A stretch of DNA of 64,000 nucleotides from Gimesia sp. (GTDB taxonomy: Bacteria > Planctomycetota > Planctomycetia > Planctomycetales > Planctomycetaceae), in assembly GCF_040219335.1 (NCBI RefSeq), contig NZ_JAVJSQ010000029.1:62001-126000 (forward strand). Reading direction: 5' to 3'. A model generated the notes under the pieces. It worked only from the letters and a program-made list of their open reading frames with translations. It searched no databases and had not been told where the DNA came from. Both the position numbers and the translations under genes were made by a program. Below, piece by piece: positions 44,334-45,833 of the stretch; position 1 is the first letter of the stretch, and each line of letters begins with the position of its first letter.

Positions 44334-44421
44334 CCCCAGAGATGGATGTAACTCTTTCACTCTACTGAGTAGGGCTTGGTTAGATTTATCAAAGGAATGA
44401 ACTCAAGAAAGGAGTCCACTG

Positions 44422-44622
44422 ATGTTAGTGCTCACGAGACGCAAGGATGAAGAGATTTTGATTAATGACAATATCTCGATCAAAGTGCTGTCAGTAAAGG
44501 GGAATCGAGTACGTCTGGGGGTGGAAGCACCTGACGACGTTCAGGTGAATCGCGCTGAAATTCGCAAGCTGGTCACCCAGTTTGAAGTCGAATGTGAGCC
44601 CCTGCAGAGCTGTGGTTTTTGA
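44422..44622 (+). CDS. csrA: Carbon storage regulator CsrA
   Basis: A 66-residue RNA-binding regulator that binds GGA motifs in mRNA leaders and alters translation, often of flagellar and carbon-storage genes. [47 protein letters not shown] follows the family from end to end: the MLVLTRR start, the VRLGVEAP strand and the VxRxEI helix start that contact RNA. The length is normal. It has a strong AAAGGAG SD. It stands at the head of the flagellar cluster, the position at which CsrA commonly works with FliW on flagellar mRNA; fliW is not in the window. Two GGA motifs in its own leader, including the SD, suggest autoregulation. Confidence 0.97.
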
Positions 44623-45059
44623 TTGATCGCACTGATCGCTGATTGATCAGACACTGGTTGCTGAATAGCCACAGTGGTTGTTAATTGATCTGGCAGTGAA
44701 TTTGGGACCTTCCAGGTCAGTTTGCGACGGACCGATGCTATTATTTTTCTCTCGTGGGAACAGCTTATTGCAGTTGTTTTCCATGTTCTCTATTTGCCTT
44801 GGTTTGTCAGCAACCAACTGATCATCATTACTGATCCGGCTCTGATAGCCAGACATTTAATACGACATGCCCACACATCTCTAAGCAGCAATTGCTTGCA
44901 GATGTGAAAATAGGAAAAATAAACTCTTTTTTCCGATTATATTAAAGATACCTGTTAGCGAGTTCCGATAGATAGACGGGGGGAAGTGTCTATCGAAACT
45001 CGTTGACATCGCCATTATCTGTTTGATTCAGATGGTGGCGGTTCATAACAGGTATCTAA
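44623..45059 (+). other. csrA-flgF intergenic region
   Basis: A 437-bp gap. The first 90 bases after csrA hold TGATTGATC-type short direct repeats (44620-44665) of unknown meaning. A weak promoter candidate (TTGCAG at 44896, 18 bases, TAAACT at 44920) precedes the structured element at 44946-45057. No credible gene is seen in either strand; open frames here have no SD or coding character. Confidence 0.4.
44946..45057 (+). promoter_or_regulatory. Structured 5' leader of flgF: predicted three-way junction enclosing the ribosome-binding site
   Basis: Three nested inverted repeats form a compact predicted RNA. P1: 44946-44957 pairs exactly with 45046-45057 (AGATACCTGTTA with TAACAGGTATCT, 12 bp). 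P2: 44959-44972 pairs with 44989-45002 (13 pairs, one C-A mismatch), with the loop containing six G and GGA. P3: 45010-45021 pairs with 45029-45040 (12 pairs, two of them G-U). The joining strands are 1, 7 and 5 bases. The flgF SD (AGG, 45050-45052) sits inside the 3' strand of P1 and ATG follows at 45060, so a folded P1 would block translation. The layout is riboswitch-like, or the P2 loop may be a CsrA site. It does not match a riboswitch class I recognise. A TAAA...CCGATA pattern here also recalls a FliA promoter, with spacing two bases too long. Confidence 0.6.
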
Positions 45060-45833
45060 ATGATTTATGGCATGTACCTCTCAGCACAAGGCGCTGATGC
45101 AAATTCAGTGCGAATGGATGTGCTGGCTAACAATATGGCGAATGCGAACACGACTTCATTCAAGCGTGATATACCCATTTTTCGCATGAACCCGCCTGCC
45201 GACGAGAAACAGGCTCCCCTGGCGCCTCTTCCCGGAGATCTGCAAAACCACAGCGGTGGTATCACTCTGGAAGGGATGACGACCAATTTCGAAAACGGGG
45301 CCATGATCTCGACCGAAAGCGATTTTGACCTGGCCTTAAAAGGGCAGGGTTTCTTTCAGGTTGGCAATTCTCAAAACTCCTATCTGACTCGCAACGGGTC
45401 CCTTTCTCTGGACAGTAAGCGCCGCGTTGTGACTGCCGATCAGGGGTTGCCTCTGCTGAATACCAACGGTCAGGAAATTACACTGCCCGTCGATGCCGTT
45501 CGCATGGAAATTTCTCCCGATGGTCTGGTGACTCCCTTTGACGCTCAAGGCCAGGCGCTGGGAACCCGGGGACAGATTGCGATCGTGATGCCATCGTCGC
45601 TCAACGAACTCGTCAAAATGGGGAATAGCCTCTACACCACTGAAGGCCGTGTTTCCGAGGCCAAAGGGCCGGTCACGATCGAACAGGGTTTTCTGGAAGC
45701 GTCCGGCACCAACTCCATTGAGGAGATGATGGAACTGGTGACCTCTACCCGGATGTTCGAGTCTAATATCAACATGATTAAACTGCAGGATGACTCACTG
45801 GGCCGTCTGATACAAAGTATGCCCCGCAGATAG
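45060..45833 (+). CDS. flgF: Flagellar basal-body rod protein FlgF
   Basis: A 257-residue rod/hook-family protein of the proximal rod. The N-terminal helix signature is SAQGADANSVRMDVLANNMANANTTSFKRDIPIF (about 6-39), with the family's ANNxANxxTxxFK phrase. The conserved FxVGN...YLTRNGSLSLDSKRRVVTADQGLPLL is near 110-140. The C-terminal helix ends SIEEMMELVTSTRMFESNINMIKLQDDSLGRLIQSM as in FlgF/FlgG. It is the shorter of two related genes and precedes flgG, which favours FlgF. The SD lies within the structured leader. The protein is exported by the flagellar type III system and has no signal peptide. Confidence 0.85.
   Translation: MIYGMYLSAQGADANSVRMDVLANNMANANTTSFKRDIPIFRMNPPADEKQAPLAPLPGDLQNHSGGITLEGMTTNFENGAMISTESDFDLALKGQGFFQVGNSQNSYLTRNGSLSLDSKRRVVTADQGLPLLNTNGQEITLPVDAVRMEISPDGLVTPFDAQGQALGTRGQIAIVMPSSLNELVKMGNSLYTTEGRVSEAKGPVTIEQGFLEASGTNSIEEMMELVTSTRMFESNINMIKLQDDSLGRLIQSMPRR

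Follow-up and report, generated by a model that had tools for sequence, protein, structure and literature searches.

Immediately upstream of a flgF-like rod gene of Gimesia sp., within the 64,000 nucleotides of contig analysed here (the window), lies a stretch of DNA that can be drawn as three nested helices reaching almost to the start codon. A first-pass annotation had taken these helices for a structured leader of the flgF message that ends in an expression platform. The question raised by the locus is whether the fold belongs to the message that flgF normally uses or to some other transcript that runs through it. The features on which the answer depends are listed below.

44422–44622, plus strand: csrA (TIGR00202, 74.2 bits against a cut-off of 70.1; PF02599)
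44934–44938, plus strand: CGATT box upstream of the -35-like block
44943–44950, plus strand: TAAAGATA, -35-like block of a putative FliA-type promoter, overlapping the 5' arm of P1
44946–44957, plus strand: P1 5' arm, pairing with 45046–45057 in 12 perfect pairs
44958–44974, plus strand: P2 5' arm (mismatched base 44965)
44964–44971, plus strand: TCCGATAG, -10-like block, in the P2 5' arm
44978–44983, plus strand: GGGGGG in the P2 loop, just before which transcription would start
44987–45003, plus strand: P2 3' arm (mismatched base 44996)
45004–45045, plus strand: P3 hairpin, including its three basal pairs
45046–45057, plus strand: P1 3' arm, containing the Shine-Dalgarno (SD) sequence AGGT at 45050–45053
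45060–45833, plus strand: flgF-like rod gene (best NCBIfam match TIGR02490 flgF, 146.4 bits, under the cut-off of 178.5)

A stable fold is predicted to bury the flgF ribosome-binding site

The 112 bases from 44946 to 45057 have a minimum free energy of -56.9 kcal/mol, compared with a shuffle mean of -27.3 kcal/mol (standard deviation 3.2; z = -9.21), and none of 200 shuffles was as stable. All three inverted repeats lie where the first-pass annotation had placed them, and P1 has the 12 perfect pairs that it had counted. P2 does contain the single mismatch that was described (C-A), but its 13 reported pairs are in fact 16, formed by 44958–44964 with 44997–45003 and 44966–44974 with 44987–44995; P3 is likewise a hairpin, but with 14 pairs (45008–45021 with 45029–45042) rather than 12, standing on a base of three extra pairs (45004–45006 with 45043–45045). 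The SD sequence had been correctly assigned to P1, and the ATG at 45060 follows two bases past the helix. The computation confirms that a foldable stretch lies before flgF, and the predicted fold buries the flgF SD in P1. The product of the gene, which falls short of the flgF model itself, passes the FlgEFG subfamily model (145.1 against a cut-off of 70.25), and the genes that follow are, in order, flgG, flgA, flgH, and flgI.

The claim that the arrangement matches no known riboswitch class agrees with the database searches. Rfam covariance models gave no match at gathering score in the whole 64,000-nt window, a search of 44600–45200 up to an E value of 10 returned nothing meaningful, and a search of ten relatives up to an E value of 1 returned two chance-like matches far under the gathering scores; membership in a riboswitch or other Rfam class was accordingly rejected. 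A repeated element was also rejected, as there is one copy in its own genome by BLAST and one per genus genome by covariance model. We found no description of the element in the literature on planctomycete flagellar sigma28 promoters, planctomycete transcription starts, control of ribosome-site access by long and short transcripts, or flgF leaders, within a search of open-licence papers.

Within the family the element is confined to the genus, and covariation supports P3

The element stands directly before the flgF ATG in 15 of the 17 genus genomes searched, that is, in every genome where flgF was matched over its full length. The two remaining genomes are 76% and 92% complete; the former gave no flgF match, and the latter matched other flagellar genes only weakly. 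When 170 family genomes were searched with a covariance model of the 15 elements, under stricter filters than those used for sets of up to 40 genomes, those 15 and nothing else were recovered. Across the genus the consensus P1 comprises 8 pairs, GATACCTG/CAGGTATC, a core present in all 15 loci with its last pair broken in one, and it extends to about 12 pairs only in the window's clade (L002–L006, 5 of 15). Paired cells make up 99.2% of the alignment for P1, 97.5% for P2, and 91.7% for P3.

Compensatory changes, the check that the first-pass annotation had proposed for all three helices, were found in one of them. In P3, 3 of 8 consensus pairs have changed on both sides. The number of such double changes is not above that of shuffles (352 of 500 reach it), but the covariation score exceeds them (0 of 500 reach it), and sliding the pairing partners along the alignment destroys the pairing. 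From the score, the both-side changes, and the sliding test together, P3 is therefore a supported RNA hairpin; its pairing survives G-U pairs and double changes, which upholds the earlier view that the element can form as RNA. P1 and P2 showed no compensatory double changes in the 15 genus genomes and are, judged from the alignment, conserved but not proven by covariation. Conservation in the genus extends beyond the pairs to GGGGGGA..AACTC, and includes the P2 3' arm with the adjoining unpaired AACTC.

P1 and P2 have 5' arms that resemble a FliA-type promoter

Two promoter-like blocks, in the layout TAAAGATA-n13-TCCGATAG, overlap the 5' strands of P1 and P2. The same layout, TTAATTTA-n13-TCCGATAG, precedes the flagellin gene fliC of the same genome. 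In the genus, TTCCGATA was present before fliC in 14 of 14 flagellin loci read, and the block 13 bases upstream of it was TTAATTTA in 5, CTAATTTA in 6, and TCAGATTR in 3 of these, so that the -35 side, by sequence, is less uniform than the -10 side. Outside the genus, 25 of 34 family loci have a CGRTT-N(3-6)-TNAAG-type pattern through to CGAT before flgF; these loci keep the blocks, while the fold was not found there. A genome-wide promoter pattern gave 9 matches, two of which precede flagellar genes (flgF and fliC), against 3 for a reversed control, and a second pattern, whose spacer limit is one too short for the window's own site, gave 11 against 1. FliA itself is encoded in the genome (TIGR02479, 261.7 bits against a cut-off of 189.6). 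A sigma70-type scan of 44400–45100 found no promoter.

For E. coli sigma28 promoters, PMC2859248 gives the consensus as TAAAGTTT-n11-GCCGATAA and the aer promoter as TAAAGATA-n11-GCCGACAT, the -35 of aer being identical to the block before flgF. The TCCGATAG of flgF is close to the -10 sequence GCCGATAA; thus both a TAAAGTTT-like and a GCCGATAA-like block are found here, but the spacer between the 8-mers is 13 at both flgF and fliC rather than the 11 described for E. coli. Because the layout is common to fliC, the blocks are kept in the family, the likeness to aer is close, and FliA is encoded, we interpret the 5' strands of both helices as a probable FliA-like promoter; because the spacer departs from that of E. 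coli, we call it FliA-like only, a matter of likeness rather than proven membership. The first-pass annotation had held that its leader would fail if transcription began downstream of 44946, and the promoter motif points towards such a start.

The fold may silence only read-through transcripts from csrA

With a start downstream of 44946, the fold would matter for read-through transcripts and not for the gene's own message. We propose a promoter-in-the-stem insulator, in which the fold silences only messages running in from csrA and senses no small molecule, a mechanism that we regard as having an even chance of being correct. The FliA-like promoter DNA would supply the 5' strands of both P1 and P2. 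A message from this promoter, with its 5' end close to the G-run of the P2 loop, would lack both strands, keep only P3, and leave the flgF ribosome-binding site exposed. A read-through message from csrA would instead carry the promoter sequence as RNA, which would pair with its downstream complement to form P1 and hide the SD sequence. As a result, translation of flgF would depend on the activity of its own flagellar promoter. We infer all three elements of this scheme, namely the start site, the read-through from csrA to flgF, and the translational effect.

Folding predictions for the two kinds of message are consistent with this scheme. When a short RNA assumed to start one base before the G-run was compared with a long RNA whose 5' end lies 100 bases upstream of the -35 block at the 15 genus loci, the mean predicted probability that the SD sequence is unpaired was 0.46 for the short and 0.07 for the long RNA, and the predicted cost of opening the region from the SD sequence to the AUG was 3.9 kcal/mol and 8.4 kcal/mol, respectively. 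Two loci depart from the averages: L010 shows the opposite for the unpaired SD sequence (0.21 short, 0.39 long), and L015 has nearly equal opening costs for the two RNAs (5.4 and 5.6 kcal/mol). In 10 of the 15 loci, the helix between the locus's own promoter and its ribosome-binding site outperformed shuffles (p < 0.05).

The csrA gene is a possible source of read-through RNA into flgF, as judged from gene order and terminator scans. Its stop codon lies 320 nt from the -35-like block, and a motif search over 0.4–1.5 kb located a same-strand csrA-like ORF upstream in 15 of 15 genus loci but in none of the 42 other family loci. In the interval from csrA to the promoter, a terminator scan of the window found one weak site (44756–44781; 0.5 expected by chance), and a loose terminator rule gave a weak match at differing places in 8 of the 15 genus loci and none in 7; no convincing conserved terminator is apparent between csrA and the flgF promoter across these loci.

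A run of G precedes flgF in many genera

Within 100 bases upstream of flgF, 52 of 105 loci and 36 of 76 genera among the matches listed have a run of at least 5 G, with 13 of 29 genera in the window's family and 23 of 47 in other families. Controls in the same 105 loci were far lower, with 5 C-runs in the same stretch, 3 G-runs 200–300 bases upstream, and 4 in the first 100 coding bases. In 33 of 37 loci outside the genus, again among the matches listed, the run begins 27–39 bases upstream of the ATG; in the genus it lies 81–87 bases before the ATG, a larger distance because P3 sits between. The run was seen under both FliA-like and sigma54-type promoters across the class (matches listed), often in a small hairpin (GCAGG...CCTGC) about 30 bases before flgF, as in L155, L163, L170, L172, and L173. 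A scan of the genome collection for the G-run hairpin gave matches in many unrelated taxa, among the matches listed. An upstream ORF at the run was dropped as a candidate, as its start codon and frame, by reading, vary between species.

Alternative explanations of the fold

The whole element could instead be an ordinary flgF leader transcribed from a promoter further up, with P1 responding to a ligand, protein, or temperature in the manner of a riboswitch. The strength of the fold (z = -9.2) and the covariation of P3 would suit such a leader, as would the conserved P2 3' arm and unpaired AACTC, both dispensable to a simple read-through hairpin; indeed, the insulator model does not explain the conserved GGGGGGA..AACTC. 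What counts against it, and against the expression platform of the first-pass annotation in particular, is the overlap of both 5' arms with a promoter-like motif common to fliC. Together with the absence of an Rfam match, the limitation to one genus among 170 family genomes, and the lack of a sigma70-type promoter in the scanned region, this leads us to consider a riboswitch-like leader unlikely, though a serious contender. CsrA-controlled leaders have GGA in hairpin loops, with one near the SD sequence, and csrA adjoins the locus; the P2 hairpin with its G-run loop might be the active part, as the target of a C-rich RNA or of a protein, for instance CsrA, with P1 secondary. The frequency of the run before flgF (52 of 105 leaders and 36 of 76 genera in the matches listed, against 3–5 of 105 in controls) and the A that follows it in the genus, which gives all 15 loci a GGA in the P2 loop, favor this possibility. 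However, in most other-family loci of the matches listed C rather than A comes after the run, so that GGA is not its constant part, the window has no GGA at the SD sequence, and a start at the run would leave the gene's own message unable to form P2. We judge binding at P2 to be improbable.

P1 might also reflect chance or neutral complementarity between a promoter block and a ribosome-site sequence that are each conserved for their own reasons, and the lack of double changes in P1 and P2 and the 5 of 15 loci that miss p < 0.05 in the helix test would then be expected. We give this little credence: CAGGTATC, the 3' arm of P1, is invariant in 15 of 15 loci while columns of the leader average 79% identity, and both the helix test in the remaining 10 loci and the stability of the whole fold speak against it. 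That the inverted repeats act as DNA, as an operator or cruciform, fits the P1 arms, which are perfect as DNA, yet about 90 bases separate these arms and the persistence of P3 pairing through G-U pairs and double changes indicates RNA; we consider a role as DNA very improbable.

Possible promoter and ribosome-site complementarity beyond the genus

Whether other rod operons mirror their promoters was examined by pairing each promoter with its own ribosome-site segment and with segments from other genera. The 58 family flgF matches yielded 54 loci, leaving out L045 (contig edge) and L058, L066, and L126 (no promoter match), with the promoter placed by hand for L034, L052, L127, and L128; in the comparison in which L056 stood out, no promoter match was obtained for L052, L058, and L066. 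From the matches listed, 48 class loci were hand-picked, one per genus (47 from other families and L191 from the window's family). A sigma54-type promoter, GGCAC-N5-TTGC, preceded the flgF-like gene in 30 of these 48 (for example L145, L155, and L172); the other 18 were left out, of which L148, L167, L169, and L185 look by eye like variant sites. There is thus an apparent swap of promoter class before flgF, FliA-like in the window's family and sigma54-type in other families. PMC12316311 predicts sigma54 control of motility genes in Planctomycetia, in text that does not name flgF.

For 24 other genera of the family, own pairing averaged -17.4 kcal/mol compared with -15.3 kcal/mol for foreign pairing (p = 0.002; controls: reversed 0.09, one shuffle 0.35, coding 0.17 and 0.48, upstream 0.12). 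For 30 genera of other families (from 47 such loci), with sigma54-type promoters assigned by pattern in the matches listed, the difference gave p = 0.00025 (controls: reversed 0.03, five shuffles 0.03–0.42 with one at 0.03, coding 0.09 and 0.31, upstream 0.04); as the controls in this set lean the same way, part of the signal is common composition. Against dinucleotide shuffles, an ungapped helix reached p < 0.05 in 3 of the 24 family genera (Fisher 0.02) and in 5 of the 30 others (Fisher 0.015; matches listed), and the energy z was -0.63 (p = 0.025) and -0.26 (p = 0.16, not significant), respectively. Single strong cases are L037 and L161, which pass the helix test, and L056 and L172, which stand out by energy only and have interrupted helices. 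These comparisons are suggestive of a complementarity beyond the genus that is modestly enriched and not decisive. A class-wide reading, in which the ribosome-binding sites of rod operons have repeatedly and convergently come to mirror the operons' own promoters, FliA-like or sigma54-type, with no fixed sequence, is one that we hold only tentatively and rather doubt.

Two arrangements were observed in passing. In L170, the GCTAAAT of the sigma54 -12 box is mirrored by an ATTTAGC adjoining the ATG, and a G-run hairpin separates the two; an unrelated sequence here repeats the layout of P1 and P2, although the helix test misses p < 0.05. In one family genus (L038–L040, L046, L055, and L057), near-tandem copies of ACTTTTCCGATT lie upstream of the promoter.

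Discussion

If the proposed insulator is correct, the promoter itself acts as the repressor strand, and a control logic described for phage late genes also guards a bacterial flagellar hierarchy. Were the class-wide reading to hold as well, only messages from flagellar promoters would be translatable across the planctomycete class, a check against premature flagellum building. Strong folds beside start codons can overlap promoters, and reading such a fold as leader RNA first needs a mapped start.

Two kinds of known system resemble the flgF element. Riboswitches that sequester the SD sequence share with it a junction fold that closes over that sequence, but the flgF element differs from them in having no Rfam match, in its restriction to one genus, and in 5' arms that read as a promoter. 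The other parallel is with the leaders of phage T4 gene e and I-TevI, for which PMC3014915 and PMC2988022 describe a helix that buries the SD sequence in a longer RNA started upstream and a late promoter of the gene's own, in the DNA encoding the 5' strand, that yields an RNA without this strand, as we propose here. At flgF, a helix over the SD sequence in the longer RNA is likewise predicted. The flgF element, known here from sequence alone, differs from these leaders in belonging to a chromosomal flagellar gene with a FliA-like promoter, and in having a three-way fold that includes an extra, covarying hairpin.
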